Positions 365 to 23,972 of a DNA stretch of 36,436 nt are shown piece after piece. The position numbers and the translations under genes were made by a program. The stretch's first letter is position 1. Every line of letters begins with the position of its first letter. The DNA is taken from NCBI GenBank assembly GCA_947449535.1, contig CANFRP010000012.1, positions 1 to 36,436 of the forward strand. The letters run 5' to 3'. Under the pieces are notes generated by a model, which was given only the letters and a program-made list of their open reading frames with translations, ran no database searches and was not told the DNA's origin. This DNA is from Actinomycetota bacterium. GTDB taxonomy: Bacteria; Actinomycetota; Actinomycetes; Nanopelagicales; Nanopelagicaceae.

Positions 365-713
365 GAAGAGTCGCCCTATAAGCCGGATTTTGTCTCCTTG
401 CGGAGGATCACCATCCATCTAGATCTGCAATTGCTTACAGATTCAAGCAACCTACCTGATGACTTGAGCGAGCAGCTCTTAAGCGCCATCTTTTTGGTCT
501 TGCTCCAAGTGGGGTTTACCTAGCCAACTACATCACTGCAATTGCTGGTGGTCTCTTACACCACCGTTTCACCCTTACCGGTATTACTACCGGCGGTTTA
601 TTTTCTGTGGCACTGTCCTGCGGATTTCTCCGAGTGGCCGTTAGCCACCACTTTGCTCTTTGGAGTCCGGACTTTCCTCGGCATTACTGACGCGGTGATC
701 CGGGCGACTCTTC
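365..713 (-). ncRNA. rnpB: RNase P RNA, bacterial type A
   Basis: This is the catalytic RNA of RNase P, which trims 5' leaders from tRNA precursors. On the minus strand the conserved CR-I block GAGGAAAGTCCGGACTCC is present near the 5' end. The P15 loop GGTAAACCCC, which contacts the tRNA CCA end, is in the middle. The CR-V block with AAATCCGGCTTATAG is close to the 3' end. The ends are set by helix P1: GAAGAGTCGCCC (713-702) pairs perfectly with GGGCGACTCTTC (376-365). This gives about 349 nt, at the short end for type A RNAs, with a small P3 region. The first 30 nt overlap the end of the upstream kinase reading frame. Mature ends are inferred from P1, not measured. Confidence 0.95.
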
Positions 714-2498
714 ATCGACAAGGATACTTGAATCAATTGCGATTCTGACAGTCGTCATTCCTGTCTTATCTGATTTCTCGGTGTACCAGGCTCCCCCAGA
801 TAGGTAATCAAAGAGGTGGAAACCAAGGCCAGGCGAGGCCGATTCGATGCCCAATCCATTATCCGTGGAGCTAACGATGATCTTCAAATCAGAACCACGG
901 CTTACATCGATGGTCAGCTCAGAGGCACGTCCGTGTCGAACAGAATTTGCGATCAATTCTTCTACGCACTCACCAATCGCCTTTACCTCTGAGGGCCTTA
1001 ATTCGGAGTCCGCAATTTTCTGATTGAGTGAAACTTTTACTAGGGCTGACCACAAATTTCTCCGCTTGGCGAGTTCCTCACTTAATGGAGAAGTAGCAGT
1101 TTCAAGTCCGATTTCAGGATTTCGCAAGATTCCCATGATCTGGAGAATTGAGGCTTGTATTGCATCAGCATCCTGAGACTCTTGAGCATTTTGAAGAATC
1201 TTTGCTTGAACAATGAGGTTGGATTGCAATTGGCCATGAATATGTTTCGCCCAAATCTGAGAGATATCAATAATCTCTTTACTGAGGACTTGTTCCTCTG
1301 CAGCTTGTTTTTGAATTTTTGATTTAAGGGCATCACGTATTTGACGATTTGAAATCAAAGTCGCTTGCCCAATATTTAACGCAATCGCAGTAACTAAAAC
1401 AAGAGTAGCAAAGAGCCATGGATACCTTTTGTAACCGTTATCGAATGATTGAATTCCCAGCAAATTCATGAGCAGGCTCGAAATCGGGGGCGTGGCAAAC
1501 ATAATGAAAATAATTCCGACTTGAACTACAGAAGTTCGTAGAGATTCATAACGAGCAAAGACCCATTGGCAGAGTCGAAGAACAATATAGGCGGAGACGA
1601 AATCGAATATTGCGATTGCAAAGGAAGCGATAATCGATTCGTGGCGAAGGAGGATTCCCAAGGTAAAGAAACTTGTTAGGAATGCGAAAACTAAGGGATT
1701 GAGAACTTCATTCCTGCCACTGAGTGCAGCCAAGCTGATGAAACTGCCAACTTTGCCACGCTGAGTGCGTGAGCTACTGGAGCCTTCCTTATTTTGGAGA
1801 GATTGCGATTTCTCAATTAGTTCGTGGGACAAGTTACGGAAAGTACCTGATGCCAAATCTCGGACGATTTCCGGAAGGCGCTCATCCTCCTTTCCGTCAG
1901 CCATGTACTTTTGAAGCATTAACTGCGATTCCAATGCGGTTACTCGAAGTCGCTCTTGGATAGATTCTTGAGCTTTAGCCCTCACTAGATAGAAGAATGA
2001 GGATTGCTTAAATCTAATTTGCTCTTGGCGATCAAGATCGGCAAGAAGTTCCTCCTCAATCTGCCGATAAGAACCGAAGTTCTGAATAACCAACGAATAG
2101 ATCGGTAGCCAAAGGCCACCCACGATAATTGCTCCCAGAATTCGCTTTTGGATAGAGATGAAGTCGTTGAGACCAAAGAGAAGTGCAAGTCGATGGACAA
2201 GCGCACCTGAGATTCCTGCACCTATGGCGCCAATCGCTGAGAGCCAAACGAATGTTGTCTCTATTTCAATTTTCCTAAAAAGCTCCTTAGCCAGGCGCCA
2301 TAAGAAAAAGGTGAAGAGGAGCGAAAACGACTTTATAAATAACCACTGCATGAGAATGCCGAGAGTGGCTGTGCTGGACTTCTCTAAGAAAATTGAAGGA
2401 AATAAAGCCACTATAAAAAGAATCGGAAAATACTGAAGACCGATTTCCAACCGTCGAGAAGAGAGAGTGGAAACGCTCTCCTTAATGAATTGCTTCAC
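684..2498 (-). CDS. Polytopic sensor histidine kinase, partner of the adjacent regulator
   Basis: This is a membrane sensor kinase of 604 residues. Hydrophobic segments come in two groups of about four: roughly residues 21-38, 44-68, 82-110 and 118-140, then 265-285, 288-312, 322-348 and 358-378. A charged, probably helical cytoplasmic stretch (about 143-255) separates them. A coiled-coil-like segment then carries KHIHGQLQS (His419/His421; His421 is the likelier phosphoacceptor). The C-terminal HATPase domain shows an N-box (ECVEELIANSVRHG, about 510-523), DNGLG (546-550) and PGLGF (556-560). The start is GTG, overlapping the regulator stop by 4 nt (GTGA), with GGGAAAG upstream. The last roughly 15 residues lie beyond the ATPase fold and are encoded by sequence shared with rnpB. 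The ligand cannot be read from sequence. Kinase identity is firm, but the non-classical H-box makes the subfamily uncertain. Confidence 0.85.
   Translation of the reverse strand: MKQFIKESVSTLSSRRLEIGLQYFPILFIVALFPSIFLEKSSTATLGILMQWLFIKSFSLLFTFFLWRLAKELFRKIEIETTFVWLSAIGAIGAGISGALVHRLALLFGLNDFISIQKRILGAIIVGGLWLPIYSLVIQNFGSYRQIEEELLADLDRQEQIRFKQSSFFYLVRAKAQESIQERLRVTALESQLMLQKYMADGKEDERLPEIVRDLASGTFRNLSHELIEKSQSLQNKEGSSSSRTQRGKVGSFISLAALSGRNEVLNPLVFAFLTSFFTLGILLRHESIIASFAIAIFDFVSAYIVLRLCQWVFARYESLRTSVVQVGIIFIMFATPPISSLLMNLLGIQSFDNGYKRYPWLFATLVLVTAIALNIGQATLISNRQIRDALKSKIQKQAAEEQVLSKEIIDISQIWAKHIHGQLQSNLIVQAKILQNAQESQDADAIQASILQIMGILRNPEIGLETATSPLSEELAKRRNLWSALVKVSLNQKIADSELRPSEVKAIGECVEELIANSVRHGRASELTIDVSRGSDLKIIVSSTDNGLGIESASPGLGFHLFDYLSGGAWYTEKSDKTGMTTVRIAIDSSILVDEESPGSPRQ
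721..726 (-). promoter_or_regulatory. Candidate -10 box of rnpB inside the kinase gene
   Basis: On the minus strand TATCCT sits 7 nt upstream of the inferred 5' end of rnpB, within the last codons of the kinase gene. No convincing -35 is seen (CTGTCA lies about 19 nt further upstream). If this is not a promoter, rnpB must be processed from the kinase transcript. Confidence 0.3.
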
Positions 2499-3175
2499 GT
2501 AGTCTTTCCCGTTAGTTCTTGATAGAACTTAGCAAGCAGAATTCGTTGATTTACATCGCTCGAATACTTGATTCCACATTTTTTGGCGACTCGGGAGATG
2601 GAAGTCTCCGCCGATTTGATTGTCACATTTCGAATTCGACTGATCTCTGAGTTACTAAGGCCTTGCCAGAGAAACTTAAGAATTTCAATATCGGAGTCAT
2701 TAAGCGAGAGTTCGCTCATTCGGGATGGTGATGGCTTATCAATTCCACTTGTCGCAATACTTTCGACAATCGCCTGAACTAAAGACTCCGCAGAATCAAC
2801 TTTGGCTTTATCTAAATAAATTCCACCCACAGGCAATTCAGGGAGCTTGCGGCCAGTCAATCGCGGATCGCGATATGAGGAGAGAATTACGATTCCGATA
2901 TTGGCATTCTCGCGACGCAATCCCCAAGCGAGGTCAATTCCAGTTGGACCATCGCCTAAATCCAAATCGAGAAGAGCTACCGAAGGATTGGTTGACTTTG
3001 CAATTTCCATTGCCGATCTTGCGTTATTTGTTGTACCAACAACTTCAATATTGTGAAGAAGTAAAGTTGATTCCAATGTAGTGCGCATCAAATTATTGTC
3101 TTCGACAATCAACGCGCGTGTGCGTTTGGTAGATGGGTCAACAGTCATGGCCCAAGTATTCACTCTCCCTCTCAT
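2495..3175 (-). CDS. NarL/FixJ-like response regulator
   Basis: This 226-residue two-component regulator has an N-terminal receiver domain (about 20-140) with acidic residues Glu25-Asp26, the probable phosphoacceptor Asp70 (ALLDLDL) and Lys123. A C-terminal LuxR-type helix-turn-helix follows (about 157-215: LSNSEISRIRNVTIKSAE), but its recognition helix departs from the usual KTVxxHxxxI pattern, so its DNA target is probably unusual. The ATG at 3175 is chosen because TAGGTT lies exactly 6 nt upstream, fitting a leaderless transcript. ATG at 3148 (residue 10) is the alternative, since no good Shine-Dalgarno supports either. It is cotranscribed with the kinase (4-nt overlap) and diverges from the large secreted protein gene, which is an obvious candidate target. 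Confidence 0.88.
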   Translation of the reverse strand: MRGRVNTWAMTVDPSTKRTRALIVEDNNLMRTTLESTLLLHNIEVVGTTNNARSAMEIAKSTNPSVALLDLDLGDGPTGIDLAWGLRRENANIGIVILSSYRDPRLTGRKLPELPVGGIYLDKAKVDSAESLVQAIVESIATSGIDKPSPSRMSELSLNDSDIEILKFLWQGLSNSEISRIRNVTIKSAETSISRVAKKCGIKYSSDVNQRILLAKFYQELTGKTT

Positions 3176-3280: not shown

Positions 3281-6200
3281 ATGCGTAAATATCGCTCGCT
3301 TAGACGTCTAGGACACCTTCTTCTTGTCTCTTTTCTCGCTTCCACAATGCTCTCGGTTTTAATTCCCCCAGCTGCGAAAGCTGCCGTTCCAATTACGACT
3401 TATCCAGCAACCAAGGTTCGTAATATTCTTGAAACTCACAATATTTCCGCCGGAAGTTATACCGCAACAAACATAACAACTTTCACAACTGCAGATAAGA
3501 ATCTTTTTAAGTTTTCACCTACACAAGTTGCCTATAGCCCATTTGTCCAAGTCACTGGATTGGTGAATGACCCGACAACTTGCAACATCACACCTTCAGG
3601 AACTTACGGCGCTAACTTACCTGATGGCTACAACTCTCCATATGATGGAATCCAAATTACTTCGATATCGACAAGTAATGGAATTGTGACTTATAACGCG
3701 CCATCAATCCATAGCGTGCAACCTTCGGAACAAGTAACTATTTCTGGAGCTAGCACTGCGGGTTTCAACGGTACTTTTACTGTTAATTCCGTAGCAAATG
3801 GAACTTCTTTCACTGTAATAAATCCTGCGACTGGTTCTTCTTCCACAGCATTCGGTAAACACACAACTTGGGAGCGCATCTATGGCGCCACTGATACTAC
3901 GTTTACTGTTTCTCGAAACCCAAACGCATCAGGTCAAACATGTACGATCACAACAAATATCGGTTCGAGAGTTGTCTCACGCGATACCGACAACATCCCG
4001 CAGCTTCGCACATCAAACATGGCGACAGATGCAACGGGAGCTACGATTTTTATGGCCACCGGAAGCAGATGGCCAACTCAGCAACTAGGCGAGGGTGAAC
4101 TCTATATATCTAGAAACTCAGGTTCCACATTTACCAAAGTCGACTTAATTGATTCAAATGGAATCTCTCTAGGAAATACCACGATCGCTAATCCCAAAAC
4201 AACCGCGGGATACAACACGCTCTATGGATGTCAACATCGAACCTGTCTGTGGAGCTCGGTCAGCATGTCAGCAGATGGCCAAGTTATTGCAGCAACAAGT
4301 TTAGGCGGGGAGTTTGTCTATTCCACAGATGGTGGTTATCACTGGACCGAAGTTTTGCGTGAACAGTATTTTCGCTGCCAGGCGGATGGAGGCGGTCACA
4401 AATGGCAACAAGTCGCAGTATCAAAAGCTGGTAACAAAATTGTTGCTGGCACAGGTACTGGAATTATTTTCGTTCTGGATCTGACCAAATCCAATAATTT
4501 AACGCTCACTCCTATTATGCCGTCGGGCACTTCGGGTTGCGGGCAGACCCCTTATTACACAAATACTAACCCGGCTGTTTACCACAAGAGCTCCAGTGAT
4601 GTTGGAAGCGTTCCGGCCGTAATGAATACCGCTGGCTCGCTACAAGCACTTGGGATTGATCAATACGCAAAAACTCTGGTATTGGCATATGGGGCGACTG
4701 GAATTTTAATTTGTAAATTAACAAGTTCCCAGATTACTTCATGTAATTTGGCTCCAAATATGACCTTTGACAACGCCACTTCAATCGCCTGGTCTTCTAA
4801 CGGTATACAGTCACAATCGAGCGTTTTCGTTTCTAATTCTGGCCAATATATAACAATCGGTACTTTCTCAAACCTACAGGCTCGTTCCGAAGATTACGGC
4901 GCTACCTTTCAGATGTTTGGAACATCCTATGCCCGAGCACCAGGAGGCAGCTCCACAAATTATTCTGACTGCAACAACCCCGAGGGAATTATCTCAATTG
5001 CGGGTTCTGATAACGGTCAAGTTCAAGTATTTGTCACTCAAAACAGCACAAACTCCTACAACTCCTACGCCATAACTCCGGGTGTATGTAAATCTACAAA
5101 CTTTGGCCGAAAGAATTCCTGGGTCTCAGTCCCGGTTTCCATGTATGCCGGGGATTCGACAGACATTTCTCGACAACAAGTCTGGTCGAGCGTCGTGTTG
5201 GGTTCGACCGGTGCTCCGATGTACTTGGGTTCATATGGCGTTAGTCAGTACTACAACACAACTACTCCATGTAACGCCACATACGTTCTATATTGTTCGC
5301 CATTCTTCTGGTCTAGCTTTGGCGTCACCGGACCGGCATCTTTGGCAACTCCCGTCGGAACCACGATCTCTGGTCAATTTTATTCAACAGTTAACCCGCC
5401 TTCAGGTCAAGTGGCAACAATTTCGTGGGCATTAGGTAAAACTTCGGATGGTTCTTCTGTCTCGGGAATAACAATTACATCAAGTGGAACTTTATTTGTT
5501 GCTAATACCGTTCCGGAGGGTGTTTATGGAATGACGATTAGCGGCACGGATGCTGGAACGACTGCCTCCATTGACATGACGATTTATGTTTACGATCCCA
5601 ATAGAGCTCCGCCAACATTTGATACGCCAGTCTCCACCAGTGATGGCTATACAGTGAACGTAACTAATTACGATTCGAGATATAACTACAACTCTTTTAG
5701 TGATACCGGAACTGTCACGCCTGGAACACCATCGGGCTCCACCTTGCCCTTAACGCTCACGGGTATAGCTCCATCCTCTCCGGCGATAATTACCACCCAA
5801 AGTTTTATGGGAACTGTTGTCACCACTCAGTATTCGATTATTTCGAGTACGGTCACTGGATATTCGACGGGCCCGCAAACTCCCCTTTACATAACATCTG
5901 ATCCGACGATTGCCGCTGGGGGCAGTCGAACTTTGACTACATCTGGTGGCAGTGGTGCAGGCGCCGTTACTTACGCGATAACGACTACCGGAAATGCTGG
6001 GTGTTCTATTTCTGGCGCAGTCCTCTCGGTTACTTCTGTGACCGCGGGAAATACATGTGGAGTTACGGCCACGAAAGCTGCAAATGGAAATTTTCTTTCG
6101 GTTTCGAGTTCGGAACAAACGATTACTGTGAAAACAGCTGGATTGATTCCAACGTTTGACACTCCCATTAGAACTTCAGGTGGGTATACCGTTCACATCA

Positions 6201-6970
6201 CAAATTACAGCGCTTCATACACTTGGACTGTCACTACTTCGGCAGGTTCAATTTCAGTCTCCTCTCCTTCGGGGTCGATTGAGACAATTACAATTACGAG
6301 TTTGACGGGCGGGGCTTCAGCAACAGTCACAGCCTCCACAAGTCGAACAAACTATTCAAACGAAACATCCACTGTGTCAGCTGCAGCGCTAAAGTCGCTT
6401 TCCATCCAAGCAGCTTCACCGACTTTCTATACTGGCTCGGTTGGTAATGAAACTTTTACCGCTTCTGCTCTCTTGGCTGGTGACACGATTACCTCAGTAA
6501 CATTTACCTATTTTGGGACTGGATCCACTTCTTATGGTCCTAGCACAAACATGCCAAGCTCCGCGGGCACATATAGTGCAACTCCCTCCGCTGCCGTCTT
6601 TGGAGTTGGTTCTGCAAGTAATTACATCATCACCTACTCCTACGGAATCATCACAATTATGGCTGACCCAGCATTTGCAGATGGACCAATAATTGTTACG
6701 CTCCCCAGCAATATTGATTTCCGCAAAGCAACATATGTCACTGTCACAATACGTTCGGCTTATCCTGGTCGAGTGGCACTTCTTGCCAACAATCGAAAGG
6801 TTGCTGGCTGCACATCCCTTCCCATCGTGTCTACGACAACGTGTCGTTGGCGACCGAGTACACATGGCCAGATAATTCTCACGGGTGTACTCACTCCTAC
6901 AGATAACGCGATTCCTGTAGCCAAGTTCCCAGTCACTGTGAGCGGTGGCCGTCGAGTGGTCTCCCGCTAA
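3281..6970 (+). CDS. Large secreted beta-rich surface protein with Asp-box and Ig/MBG-like repeats
   Basis: This is a 1229-residue exported protein. A signal peptide is clear: basic MRKYRSLRR, a hydrophobic core and an A-x-A end near residue 34. Residues about 270-545 hold three Asp-box motifs (SxDxGxxW/F): a degenerate SRNSGSTF at 277, STDGGYHW at 348 and SEDYGATF at 536, suggesting a BNR-type beta-propeller. The C-terminal half is Ser/Thr/Gly-rich with repeated Ig-like units: FDTPVSTSDGYTVNVTNY (about 776) and FDTPIRTSGGYTVHITNY (about 955). An MBG-like unit follows near 1040 and a final domain at about 1130-1229. There is no LPXTG motif or C-terminal membrane anchor, so attachment is unexplained. 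A role in adhesion or as an exoprotein is inference; no catalytic residues are evident. Its stop overlaps the next start (TAATG). Confidence 0.85.
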   Translation: MRKYRSLRRLGHLLLVSFLASTMLSVLIPPAAKAAVPITTYPATKVRNILETHNISAGSYTATNITTFTTADKNLFKFSPTQVAYSPFVQVTGLVNDPTTCNITPSGTYGANLPDGYNSPYDGIQITSISTSNGIVTYNAPSIHSVQPSEQVTISGASTAGFNGTFTVNSVANGTSFTVINPATGSSSTAFGKHTTWERIYGATDTTFTVSRNPNASGQTCTITTNIGSRVVSRDTDNIPQLRTSNMATDATGATIFMATGSRWPTQQLGEGELYISRNSGSTFTKVDLIDSNGISLGNTTIANPKTTAGYNTLYGCQHRTCLWSSVSMSADGQVIAATSLGGEFVYSTDGGYHWTEVLREQYFRCQADGGGHKWQQVAVSKAGNKIVAGTGTGIIFVLDLTKSNNLTLTPIMPSGTSGCGQTPYYTNTNPAVYHKSSSDVGSVPAVMNTAGSLQALGIDQYAKTLVLAYGATGILICKLTSSQITSCNLAPNMTFDNATSIAWSSNGIQSQSSVFVSNSGQYITIGTFSNLQARSEDYGATFQMFGTSYARAPGGSSTNYSDCNNPEGIISIAGSDNGQVQVFVTQNSTNSYNSYAITPGVCKSTNFGRKNSWVSVPVSMYAGDSTDISRQQVWSSVVLGSTGAPMYLGSYGVSQYYNTTTPCNATYVLYCSPFFWSSFGVTGPASLATPVGTTISGQFYSTVNPPSGQVATISWALGKTSDGSSVSGITITSSGTLFVANTVPEGVYGMTISGTDAGTTASIDMTIYVYDPNRAPPTFDTPVSTSDGYTVNVTNYDSRYNYNSFSDTGTVTPGTPSGSTLPLTLTGIAPSSPAIITTQSFMGTVVTTQYSIISSTVTGYSTGPQTPLYITSDPTIAAGGSRTLTTSGGSGAGAVTYAITTTGNAGCSISGAVLSVTSVTAGNTCGVTATKAANGNFLSVSSSEQTITVKTAGLIPTFDTPIRTSGGYTVHITNYSASYTWTVTTSAGSISVSSPSGSIETITITSLTGGASATVTASTSRTNYSNETSTVSAAALKSLSIQAASPTFYTGSVGNETFTASALLAGDTITSVTFTYFGTGSTSYGPSTNMPSSAGTYSATPSAAVFGVGSASNYIITYSYGIITIMADPAFADGPIIVTLPSNIDFRKATYVTVTIRSAYPGRVALLANNRKVAGCTSLPIVSTTTCRWRPSTHGQIILTGVLTPTDNAIPVAKFPVTVSGGRRVVSR

Positions 6971-7629
6971 TGGCTAAATACAACGCTTTAAGCCACTCCC
7001 TGGGTGATGGCGATGATTCACTTGAAGAGTTTGAATATTACGATGATGAGTTTGTGGCTGAGGATGGCTCGACTGCCAAACCACGAGTACTCACTAAGGC
7101 ACGTAGATTCTCGATGCTTTTCGCTCTCGGAATGCTGACATCCGCTGTTGCCGCAAACATCACGCTTTCCTTCACTTCAGGTTCTGAATTTGGGCAGGGA
7201 GTAAAGCAACTTAAGGCGTGTACGCCAACACTCTCCATAACGCCAGTTTCAGGTTACGAGAATTCAGGAAGCGGAACATTCACTATGGATGCCGTAGATA
7301 TTTCAGGTATTCCAGATACATGTATTGGATATGACTTTGTCATTAAAGTTTGGGATGACACAACGCAATCGCCACTCAAAGTGACAGATACGAGCGGTAA
7401 TGACACGATTCTTTTAGATTATGTCCGCGTATCCATGCTTCCAGGAAAAGATTTTGCGATGGTCGGCTCACCTAACGCATACGTTGATATTCTCGATACC
7501 TCAACCACTACCGACAATCAAATTTCATTGGTATATGACGCCGGCGCACTGCAAGGAAATATCTCGCACTACGCCGACGCCAAGAATGTTTATAAAGTAA
7601 CGGTTGAAACTTTCGCTACAGGTAGCTAA
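6970..7629 (+). CDS. Single-span exported protein coupled to the large surface protein
   Basis: This 219-residue protein is of no family I can name. The first 45 residues are hydrophilic and very acidic (LEEFEYYDDEF) and end in KARR. One hydrophobic segment follows (about 47-66), then an extracytoplasmic domain beginning FTSGSEFGQGVKQLKACTP, with Cys residues near 84 and 118 that could form a disulfide. The rest is beta-prone and Thr/Asp/Ser-rich. The EFGQG...C-T motif just after the membrane segment looks like a conserved head, and I have the impression of similar proteins in freshwater actinobacteria without a known role. Its ATG overlaps the stop of the 1229-residue gene by 1 nt, so the two are translationally coupled. 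It could be a membrane partner, anchor or pilin-like subunit; this is inference. The segment could be a signal anchor or a cleaved, late-starting signal peptide (AVAA at 59-62). Confidence 0.75.
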   Translation: MAKYNALSHSLGDGDDSLEEFEYYDDEFVAEDGSTAKPRVLTKARRFSMLFALGMLTSAVAANITLSFTSGSEFGQGVKQLKACTPTLSITPVSGYENSGSGTFTMDAVDISGIPDTCIGYDFVIKVWDDTTQSPLKVTDTSGNDTILLDYVRVSMLPGKDFAMVGSPNAYVDILDTSTTTDNQISLVYDAGALQGNISHYADAKNVYKVTVETFATGS

Positions 7630-17547: not shown

Positions 17548-20268
17548 ATGACCAATAGCTCGGAGACTCCAGACCAGTTCATCGATCAGCTCGTAGATAC
17601 TGATCCGCAAGAAACTAAAGAGTGGTCGGATTCCCTGGAAGCCGTTCTTAAAAATGCTGGTCCAGTGCGAGCGCGCTACTTAATGCTCTCCATGATTCAA
17701 AAGGCGCAAGAAGAAAATTTGGGCATTACAGGACTTCGCGGAACTGATTACATCAACTCAATTCCACCTCTGATGGAGCCGGCCTTCCCTGGCGATGAAG
17801 ATATCGAGCGCCGCATTCGTGCTTTTAATCGTTGGAACGCAGCAGTCATGGTGCACCGCGCACAGCGCCCAGGAGTTGGCGTTGGCGGACACATCTCTAC
17901 TTATGCATCTTCTGCATCTTTATATGAAGTTGGCTTTAACCACTTCTTCCGCGGCAAAGATCATGCAGGTGGTGGAGATCAGATTTTCTTCCAGGGCCAT
18001 GCAAGTCCGGGAATGTATGCACGCGCTTTTCTTGAAGGTCGCCTCACCGAGCAACAGATGGATGGCTTCCGCCAAGAACTATCACACGAAGGTGGCGGAC
18101 TCTCCTCTTATCCACACCCACGATTGATGCCAGAGTTCTGGGAGTTCCCAACTGTTTCGATGGGCCTCGGTCCGATCAACGCGATCTACCAAGCTCGCTA
18201 CAACCGTTATCTCCATGGCCGTGGCCTAAAGGACACCAGCGATCAACGCGTCTGGGCATTTCTGGGTGATGGCGAAACCGATGAACCAGAATCATTGGGG
18301 GCACTCTCTCTTGCTGCGCGCGAAGGTTTAGATAATCTGATCTTTGTTATTAACTGTAATTTGCAGCGCTTGGATGGACCTGTTCGTGGCAACGGAAAAA
18401 TCATTCAGGAATTGGAATCGATCTTCAACGGTGCTGGCTGGAACGTCATCAAAGTTGTGTGGGGCCGTGAGTGGGATGAGCTTCTCGCTAAGGATCGCGA
18501 TGGCGCACTTCTAGATTTAATGAATCGCACAACCGATGGTGATTACCAGACCTTTAAGGCCGAATCTGGTGCATATGTTCGCGAGAACTTCTTTGGTCGC
18601 GATCCGCGCACCGCAGCAATGGTTGCCGATTGGTCAGATGAAAAGATTTGGGCACTCAAGCGTGGTGGCCACGACTATCGCAAGTTGTATGCCGCATATA
18701 AAGCAGCAACCGAACATAAGGGTCGTCCAACAGTAATTTTGGCAAAAACAATTAAGGGCTGGACGCTTGGTTCGCACTTTGAAGCTAGAAATGCAACCCA
18801 CCAGATGAAGAAGATGACTCTGGAAGATCTCAAAGCGTTCCGTGACACATTACATATTCCAATTAGCGATGAGCAGATCGATGCCTACTTGCCTCCGTAT
18901 TACCGCCCGGCCGAAGATTCGCCTGAGCACAAATATATGATGGAGCGCCGTGGCGTACTCGGTGGATCAATCCCTTCTCGCCGCCCTAATTCAAAGCCAA
19001 TCGCACAACCTCCAATCACGACCTATGACTCGGTCATGCGCGGCTCTGGCAATCAAGAAGTTGCTACCACGATGGCATTTGTTCGCTTGTTAAAAGATCT
19101 GCTCAAGGATAAAGAGATGGGCAAGCACTTCGTGCCGATCATTCCTGATGAAGCGCGCACCTTTGGTATGGATTCGCTCTTCTCCTCGCTCAAGATCTAC
19201 TCCCCGCATGGCCAGCAATACGCTTCGGTCGACCGCGAATTGATGTTGTCCTATAAGGAGTCGACATCTGGTGTGATCTTGCATGAAGGAATTAACGAAG
19301 CAGGATCTGTCGCATCATTTACTGCAGTCGGTTCTTCCTATTCCACGCATGGTGTTCCGATGATTCCGATCTATATTTTCTACTCCATGTTTGGCTTCCA
19401 ACGCACGGGAGATGCATTCTGGGCAGCTTCCGATCAGATGGTTCGTGGCTTTGTTCTCGGTGCAACCGCTGGTCGCACCACTCTTAACGGTGAAGGCCTT
19501 CAGCACGAAGATGGTCACTCACATCTACTGGCATCTACTAATCCCGCAGTCGTTTGCTATGACCCAGCGTTTGCATTTGAAGTTGGGCACATTGTTCGCG
19601 ATGGTCTCAACCGCATGTATGGCGAGAACAGCGAGAATATTTATTACTACATGACTATTTATAACGAGCCATACGTACAGCCAGCAGCCCCGGCAAATCT
19701 TGATGTTGAGGGTTTGCTCAAAGGTATATATCTCTTCGGTCCCGCTAATGCGCGCAGCAAGAAGAAAGTTCAGATCTTGGCTTCGGGAGTTGCTATGAAC
19801 TGGGCGCTAAAGGCGCAGAAGTTGCTTGAAGAGGATTGGGGCGTAGCTGCCAACATCTGGTCTGTCACTTCATGGAATGAGCTTCGACGTGATGGTCTTG
19901 CAGTAGATCGCCACAACTTACTTAATCCCGATGATCGCAAATCGGCTTATGTCACCACGGCCCTTAAAGGTTACGAAGGACCCGTTGTTGCAGTCTCTGA
20001 TTTCATGCGCTCTGTTCAAGATCAAATCGCACCTTGGGTCCCACAAGAGTTTTACTCACTCGGTACTGATGGGTTTGGCCTCTCAGATACTCGCGGTGCA
20101 CTACGTCGCCACTTCAAGGTTGATGCTGAATCAATCGTTGTTGCCACACTTGCCCAACTCGCACAATCGGGGGAAGTGAAGGCGAAAGTTCTTCGGGAAG
20201 CGATGGAGAAATATCAGATCCACGATGTAACAGCCGCGGAAGCAGGAAATACCGAAGGTTCGGGATGA
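17548..20268 (+). CDS. aceE: Pyruvate dehydrogenase E1 component, homodimeric type
   Basis: This 906-residue thiamine diphosphate enzyme decarboxylates pyruvate and acetylates the lipoyl group of E2, feeding acetyl-CoA synthesis. The ThDP/Mg motif is [10 protein letters not shown] followed by [20 protein letters not shown]. The substrate-pocket region [16 protein letters not shown] and the transketolase-type second half ([29 protein letters not shown]) are intact. Length is normal (E. coli AceE is 886-887). The ATG has GGAAAG 8 nt upstream. The gene diverges from DUF3052. Its stop shares ATGA with glgE, so glucan synthesis genes sit in the same transcript. E2 and E3 are not in the window. Confidence 0.98.
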
Positions 20269-22019
20269 TCGGCCGCTTTCCCATCGTTGATATCTCACCG
20301 GTTGTTAATTTCGGTGAGGAATATGTCGGTGTGAAGGCAATCCCCCATGAGTTAATTGAAGTAAGTGCGACCATCGTTCGAGAAGGTCACGATGCACTAC
20401 ATGCAGAGGTAATTCTCTTTAATCCGGCAGGCAAAGAAGTGTCGCGTTCGCCTATGAAAGAGCTACATCAAGGCACCGATCGCTTCATCGGTGAAGTTCG
20501 CCCTACCTCCATTGGTCATTGGGCCTATGCCATAGAAGCATTTGATAACCAAGAGAAAACTCGTAACCGAGATGCGAAGCGAATTTCAGCAACCAGTGAG
20601 AAATTCCCAATCTATGTCGAGCCAGAGCGCGCTCTTGTCGGTGCGTGGTATGAATTCTTTCCTCGCTCAGAAGGCGCTATCAAAAATAAAGATGGATCAA
20701 TTACATCTGGCACATTTAAGAGTGCAATAGCGAGCCTGCAACGCGTTGCGGATATGAACTTTGATGTTCTCTATATCCCGCCCATTCATCCGATTGGTGT
20801 GGCATTTCGTAAAGGCAAAAACAACTCGTTAGAAGCACTGCCTACTGACCCAGGAGTCCCTTGGGGAATCGGTGGCGCTGCCGGTGGCCACGATGCAGTA
20901 AACCCAGAACTCGGCACTCTCCAAGATTTCGATGCCTTTGTCGCAGCGGCCAAGAAGTTAAAGATTGATGTTGCGCTGGATTTAGCTTTGCAGACATCTC
21001 CCGATCATCCTTGGGTGAAATCTAATCCCGAATGGTTTACCACTCGACCTGATGGCGCCATCGCATACGCGGAGAATCCGCCAAAGAAATATCAGGACAT
21101 TTATCCCATTAATTTCGATAATGATTACGCCGGAATTCTTAAGGAAGTAAAGCGGGTGGTTGATTTTTGGATTGCTCGTGGGATCACTATTTTTCGGGTC
21201 GATAATCCCCACACCAAGCCAGTGCGCTTCTGGCAAGAGTTGATTGGCTTGGTTAATGCCGAGCACCCAGAGATCGTTTTCTTAGCTGAAGCTTTTACTC
21301 GCCCGGCCATGATGCACGCACTTGGTAAAGCCGGTTTTCAACAGTCATACACCTACTTCACCTGGCGCACATCAAAGAATGAATTGATGGAATACGGCCG
21401 CGAGATCTCCAAAGCGACTTCCGCATTCTTCCGCCCCAACTTCTGGGTCAATACACCCGATATTTTGCCCTTCCACTTACAAAGTGGAAATCCTGCAATC
21501 TTTGCTCAACGAGCAGTACTCGCATCCACAATGGCGCCTTCGTGGGGAATGTATTCGGGATATGAGTTATATGAGCATCTTCCTTTTAAGGAAGGCGGAG
21601 AGGAATATCGCGACTCTGAAAAATATGAGATTAAAGTGCGCGATTGGGCAGGTGCCACGAAAGCTGGGCTGAGCCTTGCTCCATTTGTCGCTAAATTAAA
21701 TGAGATTCGCAGAAAGCATCCAGCACTATTGCGCCTTCGCAATTTGGAATTCCATCACTCAGAAAATGATCAAGTGATTGCCTATTCCAAGCGAGAGGGT
21801 AGCGACCTTATTCTTATCGTCGTAAACCTCGACCCGATTCGAGCTCAGGAGACAACGGTGCATTGGAACATGGAGCTCTTGGGATTGCCAGCTTCCCAGT
21901 TTGCAGCGCGCGATGAACTTTATGGCGAGACCTACACCTGGTCAGCACAGACCTTTGTTCGCCTAGATCCCACTCGACCAGTTGGTCGAGTTGCTCATAT
22001 CGCACATGTAAAGATCTAG
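20265..22019 (+). CDS. glgE: Alpha-1,4-glucan:maltose-1-phosphate maltosyltransferase, compact form
   Basis: This 584-residue GH13_3 enzyme transfers maltosyl units from maltose-1-phosphate to linear alpha-1,4-glucan. An N-terminal beta-sandwich domain (about 1-110: [20 protein letters not shown]) leads into the barrel at [15 protein letters not shown]. Catalytic residues are present: nucleophile Asp313 in RVDNPHTKP and acid/base Glu342 in LAEAFTRP, with [28 protein letters not shown] and [11 protein letters not shown]. Canonical GlgE proteins are about 660-700 residues. The active-site numbers are 81 lower than in Streptomyces GlgE (394, 423) because the helical insert (domain S) between the N-domain and the barrel is missing; only about 20 residues link them. 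The start overlaps aceE (ATGA); glgB follows 3 nt later. No treS or maltokinase gene is in the cluster. Confidence 0.96.
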
Positions 22020-22022
22020 TTC

Positions 22023-23972
22023 ATGTCCTTATTTGCACGAATATTTAAATCCAAGCAGAGCGCTAAAGCGGTTGAGCCACAATTCCCACCTGTCGGATAT
22101 CTCAATCCGCAATCCACCTTAGGCGAGATGGATTTATATCTCATCGGCGAAGGGCGTCACGAACGTCTCTGGGAGGCGCTCGGTGCGCACACTCGTCGCA
22201 CACCCGAAGGCGAACTTCTGGGAACTGCTTTCTCGGTATGGGCGCCTAATGCTCGCTCTGTCTCGCTAACTGGCGATCACAACTACTGGGATAAATCCGC
22301 GCATCCGATGATTCCCTTGGGCGGAAATGGAATTTGGGAAATCTTTATTCCCTCGATTGGCGCCGGTACAAAATATAAATTTGCGATTCTTCAACAAGAT
22401 GGTCGGTGGGTTGATCATGCCGATCCCATGGCGCGCGCTACCGAAGTTCCACCGTTGACTGCTTCGATCGTAGATGAGAGCACATTTGCGTGGAGTGATA
22501 GCTCATGGATGGAGCAGCGGAAGAGTTTTCAACCTTGGAAATCTGCACTATCGGTCTATGAAGTTCACTTGGGCTCGTGGAGACCCGGCCTTACTTATCG
22601 CGAGCTGGCAGCTGAATTAACTCAATACATACTGGAACAAGGATTTACGCACGTTGAATTTTTACCAGTAATGGAGCATCCCTTTGGTGGTTCGTGGGGC
22701 TACCAAGTCACCTCGCTCTTCGCTCCCACCTCACGTTTTGGCTCGCCCGATGATTTCCGCTATTTAATTGATCAACTCCATGCTGCAGGTATCGGAACCA
22801 TCATCGATTGGGTGCCAGCACACTTTCCTAAAGATGAATGGGCACTCGCTCGCTTTGATGGAACAGCGTTATATGAGCATGAGGATCCGCGTTTAGGCGA
22901 GCACCCTGATTGGGGCACTCTCATTTTCAATTATGGCCGCAATGAAGTCCGCAATTTTCTTGTAGCCAGCGCGCTCTATTGGTTATTGGAGTTTCATATC
23001 GATGGCATTCGGGTAGATGCCGTGGCTTCGATGTTGTATTTAGATTATTCACGAAAAGAAGGTCAGTGGCTTCCTAATAAATTTGGTGGACGTGAGAATC
23101 TGGAAGCGGTTGCCTTCTTACAAGAAGCCACCGCAACTGCTTATCGACAGGCTCCGGGCATCATGATGATTGCCGAGGAATCGACTGCATGGGGTGGGGT
23201 CACAAAGCCAACATCGGAGAATGGCCTTGGCTTTGGATTTAAGTGGAATATGGGTTGGATGCACGACACTTTGGAATACATCAAACACGAACCGGTTCAC
23301 CGGGCGCATCACCACAACGAACTCACATTTGCGATCTTGTATGCCTATTCCGAGAACTTCTTGCTCCCCCTCTCCCATGATGAAGTGGTGCATGGCAAAG
23401 GTTCGCTCTTGGCAAAAATTCCGGGTGATCGTTGGCAGAAGTTAGCCACACTGCGTGCCCTCTATGGATTTATGTGGGCGCACCCAGGAAAGAAACTTCT
23501 CTTTATGGGATGCGAGTTCGCTCAGAATGATGAATGGAGTGAATCCCGATCACTTGATTGGCACCTCTGCGAATTTGATGAGCACCGCGGTATTCAATCA
23601 GCTCTTCGTTCCATGAATAAGACCTATGTTGGCCTTCCCGCAATGTGGGAGCAAGATATTTCTCCAGCAGGATTCCAATGGCTTGTGGGCGCAGATGCCG
23701 CAGGCAATACCGTCGCATTCGTTCGTTGGGCAAGCGACGGCTCGTGCGTGGTCGCAATTTCAAACTTCTCACCTGTACCGCATGAGAGTTATTCATTACC
23801 AATGCCAAAGGCGGGAATGTGGCGAGAAATACTCAATACTGATGCGCTCGAATTTGGCGGAAGCGGTATCGCCAATTCAGTCATTGAAGCAAAAGCACAG
23901 GAGCGAGATGGGTTTGCTGCTACCGCGACGTTACGAGTTCCACCTCTTGCAACAATCTGGCTTTCGCTTTAA
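22023..23972 (+). CDS. glgB: 1,4-alpha-glucan branching enzyme
   Basis: This 649-residue GH13_9 enzyme makes alpha-1,6 branches in the glucan extended by GlgE. After a short N-terminal leader (about 1-40) there is one CBM48 domain (about 60-150: [23 protein letters not shown]), then the barrel. Active-site residues are nucleophile Asp332 ([15 protein letters not shown]), acid/base Glu385 (MIAEESTAW) and the [14 protein letters not shown] motif. The Asp-Glu spacing of 53 equals that of E. coli GlgB (405, 458). At this length it lacks the extra N-terminal domain of the roughly 730-residue enzymes. Its stop codon is shared with the convergent MFS gene (TTAA, 23969-23972). Confidence 0.97.

Follow-up and report, generated by a model that had tools for sequence, protein, structure and literature searches.

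A GlgE without its helical domain S at a locus of Ca. Nanopelagicaceae: evidence for a working enzyme and for recurrent domain loss

The window analysed here, a stretch of 36,436 nucleotides of contig CANFRP010000012.1 from an Actinomycetota assembly (GCA_947449535.1; Nanopelagicaceae), carries on its forward strand an open reading frame (ORF; 20265-22019) that encodes a 584-residue GlgE, the maltose-1-phosphate maltosyltransferase. Its product departs from the five-domain architecture of GlgE, as the four-helix domain S, which lies within domain N, is absent over 70-72 residues. The locus raises the question of whether such a protein is still a working enzyme and, if so, how it came to lack an entire domain. 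Our answer, to which we assign a probability of about 0.84, is that it is a working GlgE minus domain S, and that this domain was deleted repeatedly from one orthologous locus in Ca. Nanopelagicaceae (the acI family, designated f1 below). From this point on, GlgEs with and without domain S will be called full-length and compact, and groups within the family are written as g1 (the genus of the window), g2 and so on.

The ORF, Pfam, solved relatives, residue checks and a structure model all identify the product as a GlgE. The closest solved relative is Streptomyces coelicolor GlgE isoform 1 (3zss, E-value 5.7e-201), matched as two pieces flanking the absent stretch, and mycobacterial GlgEs match with E-values of 3.2e-185 and 1.1e-174. 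The Pfam profile GlgE_dom_N_S is matched over positions 1-100 of its 179 only, and the GlgE-specific domain C is present (PF21702 GLGE_C, 21750-22007, forward strand, as are all features below unless stated; 88 bits versus a cut-off of 27). No model named GlgE occurs among the NCBIfam matches of the protein, and it scores far below the TreS family model (TIGR02456, 47.6 bits versus a curated cut-off of 678.35). The first part of domain N, a beta-sandwich of residues 1-94 (20265-20546), is delimited by the partial Pfam match and by the strands of the model; it is followed by a short linker, residues 95-107 (20547-20585), at the site of the 70-72-residue part of domain S in other GlgEs, and then by the closing strands of domain N, residues 108-120 (20586-20624). 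In Mycobacterium thermoresistibile, domain S spans residues 123-204 (PMC4663749).

The gap is clean and domain-sized, as the first-pass annotation had it. Relative to the closest full-length relatives (L084 and L086) it measures exactly 70 residues and is in frame, with a linker of 19 versus 89 residues, and the remaining compared segments (93, 24, 14 and 163 residues) are equal in length; relative to S. coelicolor and a Streptomyces-type locus (L049) it measures 72. The same annotation reported a shift of exactly 81 positions in the catalytic residues. This offset is correct for D313, E342 and D399 versus S. coelicolor D394, E423 and D480, but it overstates the gap, being the coincidental net sum of several indels: 81 = 16 - 2 + 72 - 5, where the S. 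coelicolor N-terminus adds 16 residues and the window protein has two more in domain N and five more near residues 137-150. Across 150 distinct fetched GlgE ORFs, two of which are fragments lacking the linker region, the lengths of the 148 measurable linkers are bimodal without intermediates, at 26-36 residues in 65 and 104-115 in 83. Compact linkers are also lineage-specific. In g1 the linker keeps 13 residues that align with AFDDPFHTWVHDA, the start of domain S, and the linkers of g5, g7, g10, g2 and g3 differ from, and are shorter than, that of g1.

An AlphaFold2 model built from 33 aligned sequences (mean predicted local distance difference test, pLDDT, 82.4; predicted template modelling score 0.84) retains domain N, with strand 84-94 connected through a short loop to strands 108-110 and 114-118. 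A single-sequence prediction reached a pLDDT of 34.5 and was not used. The top structural matches of the model are GlgEs, and its superposition on 3zss gives a Z-score of 44.9 and a root-mean-square deviation of 2.1 over 549 residues. Since the model aligns from end to end, the helical domain is nowhere else in the chain, in agreement with the first-pass annotation. Nor does it appear to have moved to another gene: domain S was not found elsewhere in any of eight compact genomes searched, three of which gave only matches at E-values of about 0.1, and all four full-length genomes used as a positive control matched at 6.2e-20 or better. A search for RNA structure at the junction returned nothing above shuffled sequences.

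The residues expected of a functional GlgE are in place, as the first-pass annotation had noted for the active-site motifs. Thirteen of the 14 catalytic and donor positions checked are invariant in all 63 compact sequences (R311, D313, N314, E342, D399, K183, N187, Q243, N271, Y276, D278, K453 and Y454); the fourteenth, K185, varies in both forms. The GH13 catalytic triad thus stands in its GlgE motifs in 63/63 sequences, with the nucleophile Asp313 at 21201-21203, the acid/base Glu342 at 21288-21290 and the third catalytic Asp399 at 21459-21461 (the S. coelicolor number of the third, D480, derives from the alignment offset). When the donor-site and phosphate-contact residues listed for M. thermoresistibile (PMC4663749) are transferred, K283, N287, Q343, N371 and Y376 correspond to K183, N187, Q243, N271 and Y276 of the window protein, and D378, R411, N414, K552 and Y553 to D278, R311, N314, K453 and Y454. 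Acceptor residues are likewise conserved, with H316, T345, P347, Y364, W367 and R368 found in 63/63 compact sequences and a seventh, R346, variable in both forms; subsites +1 to +4 as described for S. coelicolor (H397, P428, Y445, W448 and R449; PMC5076824) are represented by H316, P347, Y364, W367 and R368. Ratios of nonsynonymous to synonymous substitution (dN/dS) are 0.02-0.09 in compact pairs (11/12 pairs with computable dS) and 0.04-0.05 in three full-length pairs, which indicates that compact glgE is under strong purifying selection.

GlgM is the producer of maltose 1-phosphate. It scores above cut-off in 25/25 genomes bearing glgE and in none of five genomes without it. The genome of the window is no exception, with GlgM in two pieces (C20:26199-27044 and C31:12972-13412) that are probably the result of an assembly break; the compact GlgE is accordingly accompanied in its own genome by a source of its donor and, in the adjacent gene, by GlgB. 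Neither maltokinase nor TreS is above cut-off in any of these 30 genomes. Of these two absences that of maltokinase is less secure, because its model passed the cut-off in none of 14 control genomes (the TreS model did so in three). The co-occurrence of GlgM, taken together with maltokinase and TreS below cut-off, makes GlgM, GlgE and GlgB, in that order, the likely pathway, as judged from gene content. From these features we infer that the compact GlgE is active: with GlgM supplying maltose 1-phosphate as donor, it would extend an alpha-glucan by maltosyl units, and GlgB would next branch the product.

Compact GlgE is restricted in our surveys to one family. A survey of 201 genomes of the order returned 105 matches, four of them weak matches to other enzymes, and 101 glgE-bearing genomes, which a tally by hand divides into 72 compact (eight of these truncated or split), 27 full-length and two unclassed fragments (G093 and G102). 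No genome has both forms among the rows of this survey. Every compact ORF belongs to f1 or comes from a named locus that groups with f1 in the tree; the truncated compact loci L142 and L147, excluded from the trees, have coordinates matching the f1 genomes G194 and G145. In samples of the class and the phylum, which overlap one another or the order survey, glgE is matched in 322/394 and 112/296 genomes, respectively. Among the rows listed, matches outside the family begin at about residue 84 or later, except for six that start at 48-79 (G354, G334, G239, G352, G491 and G775); the frames of these six have at least 631 residues, and the two that were measured (L046 and L083) both contain domain S. 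Frames of fewer than 640 residues outside the family are, again among the rows listed, partial matches, mostly at or near contig ends, or in one case (G658) a split frame within a contig, and none has a short linker joining the N part to the catalytic part. All seven loci measured from outside the Actinomycetota are full-length, and in genus g14 the partial locus L102 contains the start of a domain S as well. Both forms occur in records not labelled as metagenome-assembled genomes (MAGs): the chromosome of isolate LanE43 (OX376642.1) encodes a compact protein identical to that of genome G004, and IMCC25003 (CP015603.1, L148) is full-length. The presence of both forms in isolates implies that neither is an assembly effect. 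As to the distribution of the gene itself, 96/201 genomes of the order have no glgE match, and in g1 glgE is patchy, present in three of the 18 genomes listed and missing from 15, some of which are 98-99% complete.

Compact and full-length GlgE are orthologues at one locus. In the window, glgE is preceded by aceE (pyruvate dehydrogenase E1, 17548-20268), which overlaps its start by four bases and marks the common syntenic place, and is followed on the same strand by the branching enzyme gene glgB (22023-23972; NF003811, 962.9 bits versus a cut-off of 741). Among 48 f1 loci displayed, which include two genes fetched twice (L118/L133 and L086/L137), glgB adjoins glgE in every case, and the order aceE-glgE-glgB is found in 43, in both forms and mostly with the same further neighbours. 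The five exceptions (L133, L136, L138, L118 and L119) are all compact members of subgroup g5b that have kept only glgB; aceE and the other neighbours tested were not found around glgE-glgB in these loci.

Phylogenetic trees show that the two forms are interleaved at this locus. In the tree of the catalytic region (145 rows kept after five truncated or fragmentary ones were dropped, with a second tree of 87 chosen rows), f1 is a single clade with the full-length L101 deepest, and the distribution of forms takes four changes, two of which are forced by starred branches. Both this tree and that of domain N place full-length g9 with the clade-A compact sequences and away from full-length g2 and g3; the domain N tree groups it with the compact members of g1, g5, g7 and g10 at a support of 100/95. 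In a tree of the joined N and catalytic columns (57 rows: 32 compact, 16 full-length and nine outside), starred branches force three changes, the clade-A compacts stand together at 80/78, and a single compact clade is rejected by the approximately unbiased (AU) test (p 0.0004, log-likelihood difference 74). The neighbouring genes yield the same verdict: a tree of aceE and glgB (37 rows, comprising fetched loci and the window with both genes nearly full length, one duplicate removed) rejects a single compact clade (p 1.9e-5, log-likelihood difference 345), and also rejects one compact group within clade A (p 2e-4) and one within clade B (p 5e-63). A single origin of the compact form is therefore rejected by two AU tests, and since the forms interleave as well, domain S was lost more than once. 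When only losses are counted, six are required on the midpoint-rooted locus tree and three on the joined glgE tree, and the AU test for glgE by itself calls for two. On these trees, S was lost at least twice in Ca. Nanopelagicaceae, probably three to six times. The domains that remain form one group within f1 (89/88) with L101 at its base, and their divergence between groups is about equal to, or somewhat above, that of the N domains, as expected if the lineages that retained S inherited it vertically. Exchange of whole N-terminal halves between full-length lineages was not seen in the N-domain tree. The expectation that the gap would be common to relatives thus holds for many of them, but not in the form of one compact clade. 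Two loci inside the family in the locus tree bear other names, L143 being titled Bifidobacterium breve and L141 Streptomycetaceae bacterium; both are acI-type glgE loci, and these MAG names look wrong.

Three other histories could be proposed for the compact gene. The most mundane, an assembly deletion, a binning error or a decaying pseudogene, might be suspected because the genome of the window is a draft of 60 contigs and because the glgE of one g5 genome (G075) has two in-frame TAA codons. Nevertheless, the compact form is found, by the hand tally, in 72 genomes of the order, including the single-contig genomes G004, G006 and G015 and the isolate chromosome of LanE43, and these together with independent MAGs rule out an assembly deletion. 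The deletion is moreover in frame, the linkers are lineage-specific, and a dN/dS far below 1 rules out a pseudogene, so this explanation can be set aside for practical purposes. It is highly improbable, too, that GlgE originally lacked S and acquired it by several insertions. Of the five GlgE domains, four are standard for the amylase family, and a protein without S is the usual GH13 arrangement (PMC5076824, which terms domain S 'unusual in this family'); against this, S is at the same place in all 53 outside-family sequences of the tree (46 from Actinomycetota and seven from Pseudomonas and Flavobacteriales) and in L101, the deepest family member, and the tree of S domains fits a single origin. 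A single ancestral loss in the family, with later regain of S by recombination or transfer in g9, part of g2 and part of g3, deserves more attention, and we judge it unlikely. It is the cheaper history under unordered parsimony on the catalytic trees, with four changes versus six losses on the midpoint-rooted locus tree, and the resemblance of the L120/L123 linker to those of the g2 compacts across that tree would accord with it. Full-length g9, however, is placed with the clade-A compacts and not with other full-length groups, the S domains of different groups have diverged as the N domains have or more so, with L101 basal, and each regain would require a pair of crossovers confined to some 75 codons, between flanks that have diverged.

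Our preferred reading, a working GlgE from which S was deleted repeatedly, must also accommodate several results that weigh against it. Parsimony with free gain and loss on the catalytic trees would also allow one loss and three regains (four changes). A single clade of clade-B compacts is not rejected on the glgE tree (log-likelihood difference 19, AU p 0.078), and the aceE and glgB tree leaves out glgE itself, has no outgroup and includes a single g9 row. A QYRT linker motif is common to L120, L123 and the g2 compacts, although full-length forms separate the first two from the g2 compacts in the locus tree; some transfer of glgE or an older common loss is therefore possible. With regard to the enzyme, model confidence is low in insert 1 (means of 50-63), in part of domain B (50-59) and around the linker (67-68). 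The donor-site serine found in nearly every other GlgE (M. thermoresistibile S298; PMC4663749) is replaced by Val198 in the window protein, as it is by V279 in S. coelicolor. The window protein itself retains A44, T260 and P262, three residues at positions that distinguish the forms elsewhere (see below), and the three lineage pairs from which those positions were drawn have no power, being unable to reach significance in a sign test.

What domain S does, and what its loss would entail, can be approached from solved structures. Solved GlgEs are head-to-tail homodimers. Most of the dimer contacts of the M. thermoresistibile enzyme come from domain N, with fewer from S and B (PMC4663749); in M. 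tuberculosis GlgE the interface is formed by A, N and S (PMC4526890), and a chlamydial GlgE is also dimeric by chromatography (PMC7935935). Across the dimer, domain S touches loop 2 in the domain B of its partner, and crystal structures led to the proposal that it moves this lid over the active site (PMC4663749). A linear cleft beside the donor site is built mainly from the S and N domains of the neighbouring subunit; in S. coelicolor it is lined by A58, G60 and A186, and the change of each to Arg hardly altered the kinetics (PMC5076824). In the window protein, residues 38-46 of domain N (20376-20402) include 44 and 46, the counterparts of A58 and G60 beside S. The domain B lid, residues 241-286 (20985-21122), was mapped from M. 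thermoresistibile 341-386 (PMC4663749) by an offset of 100 anchored on Q243 and D278. Residues 258-266 (21036-21062) surround its loop 2, in which M. thermoresistibile S365 is placed (PMC4663749); S365 corresponds to residue 265, and the loop borders are approximate.

The positions that differ most between the two forms point to these same surfaces. Three pairs of lineages (48 compact and 22 full-length f1 rows) were contrasted, with 16 further rows from L101 and outgroups, at 565 positions outside the linker, and variability was corrected for by shuffling labels within pairs. The five most form-specific positions after correction are 244, 44, 262, 260 and 46 (uncorrected ranks 1, 2, 7, 3 and 8), and four of these flank S in solved dimers, 44 and 46 lining the cleft formed by the S and N domains of the neighbour and 260 and 262 lying beside the domain B loop touched by S. 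The fifth, 244, which is the most divergent between forms, adjoins the donor-site residue Q243. An earlier scan for loss of the full-length consensus had 46, 38, 28, 43 and 44 as its top five. The cleft residues of S. coelicolor were known before the shuffle-corrected scoring but after the earlier scans, and the location of loop 2 was known before the later scans but after the first, which already listed 260 and 262. Among 567 positions, only K260 reaches at least 40% in each compact lineage while absent from the paired full-length ones; A262 joins it if 10% is allowed in the latter, and the reverse scans at 40% limits returned nothing. Stricter limits (60% or more in every compact lineage, 20% or less in every full-length one) yielded no gained residue and marked A44 as full-length-specific. 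Compact lineages show parallel changes at positions 260 and 262. These contrasts are a pointer, not a test, because there are only three of them and the shuffles ignore relatedness.

Two further rivals concern the protein. The first-pass annotation predicted a different oligomeric state, and loss of S might indeed leave a monomer or a rearranged dimer, as S is part of the solved dimer interface (one of the three domains there in M. tuberculosis; PMC4526890) and domain N residues 38-46 diverge in compact forms. We consider this improbable and find no support for the prediction: domain N, which provides most of the contacts (PMC4663749), is kept in the modelled compact chain, and the acceptor subsites +1 to +4 of domain A are unchanged. 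A shift of function, for example to hydrolysis or to a different donor, is very unlikely. It would be compatible with the low-confidence modelling of insert 1 and the lid residues and with the divergence at position 244, but among the residues examined for donor, phosphate and acceptor contacts only K185 and R346 vary, in both forms; glgB lies next to the gene, and across the 30 genomes of the comparison GlgM and glgE occur together. Returning to a working compact GlgE, we infer that surfaces formerly covered by S are exposed and altered, that the dimer is maintained through domain N, and that the lid works without S. Domain S is a peripheral module inserted in domain N that elsewhere walls one side of the linear cleft and contacts the lid of the partner; each loss would have left a short linker joining two strands of domain N, the surfaces facing S would have changed afterwards, and the lid would open with no push from S. 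More tentatively, S may be a trans-acting gate that couples the subunits by holding the lid of the partner and walling the cleft, a gate that acI bacteria repeatedly removed while altering both surfaces, though we would not yet favour this over less specific accounts. If it were true, the altered surfaces would be the cleft wall near 44-46 and the lid loop near 260-262, the linear cleft of full-length GlgE could receive branched glucan, and compact enzymes would be uncoupled dimers with an independent lid and an open cleft, making an alpha-glucan of different fine structure.

Why S was lost has no simple correlate in the genomes. Two PknB sites of M. tuberculosis GlgE are located in S (PMC4663749), but loss of Ser/Thr kinases does not explain the losses of S, since 26/27 genomes, of both forms, have two kinase matches at an E-value of 1e-20 and the remaining one, which is full-length, has one. 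Genome streamlining is inconsistent as a cause: compact forms go with smaller genomes in clade A (p 0.01), perhaps also in g3 (p 0.09), but not in g2, where the trend is opposite (p 0.12). This test used rounded sizes, entered by hand, for genomes with a completeness of 90% or more; it left out g10 and ignored relatedness.

A few observations concern the surroundings of the gene. Since aceE, glgE and glgB lie head to tail at 17548-23972, pyruvate dehydrogenase E1 may share an operon with genes of glycogen synthesis. In the g5 relative G075, glgE (C127:9414-11067) is present as two overlapping frames with the in-frame TAA codons, either a broken copy or an assembly error. Elsewhere in the window, ORFs of 1229 and 219 residues (3281-6970 and 6970-7629, forward strand) have no Pfam match at an E-value of 0.001 and adjoin a response regulator as well as an ORF on the opposite strand (684-3175) that weakly resembles a histidine kinase.

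The compact GlgE is a genuine and recurring variant of an enzyme already known, and its repeated appearance at one orthologous locus is a stronger finding than the gap itself. In a freshwater family with tiny genomes, a whole domain would have been dropped several times with the active site intact, which implies that S is dispensable for a GlgE under strong purifying selection and bears on the use of S as a handle on the enzyme. The same orthologous gene with and without S, available in isolates of both forms, provides natural matched pairs for testing the role of the domain. A GlgE lacking S is unreported in the literature searched (subscription literature was outside its scope), including the accessible portions of PMC4663749, PMC4526890, PMC5076824, PMC7935935 and the review PMC11046441.

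Among known systems, S. coelicolor GlgE isoform 1 (3zss, 4cn1 and 4cn4; GH13_3) shares with the window protein domains N, A, B and C, the inserts, the catalytic and acceptor residues and the Val at the variable donor-site position; it differs in possessing S, with 72 residues absent from the window protein, which in turn has the two and five additional residues noted above, and whose maltose 1-phosphate is apparently derived from GlgM. M. thermoresistibile GlgE (5cgm and 5cim) likewise has domains N, A, B and C, the inserts and the same catalytic and acceptor residues, but carries Ser at the variable donor-site position and has an S domain whose conformations have been suggested to gate the lid of the other subunit (PMC4663749), a domain the window protein lacks. 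The nearest comparison is with the full-length GlgEs of Ca. Nanopelagicaceae itself (L084 and L086 of g9, and IMCC25003). These occupy the same place between aceE and glgB, those of g9 are 73-75% identical to the window protein in the catalytic region, and they differ from it in the presence of domain S.

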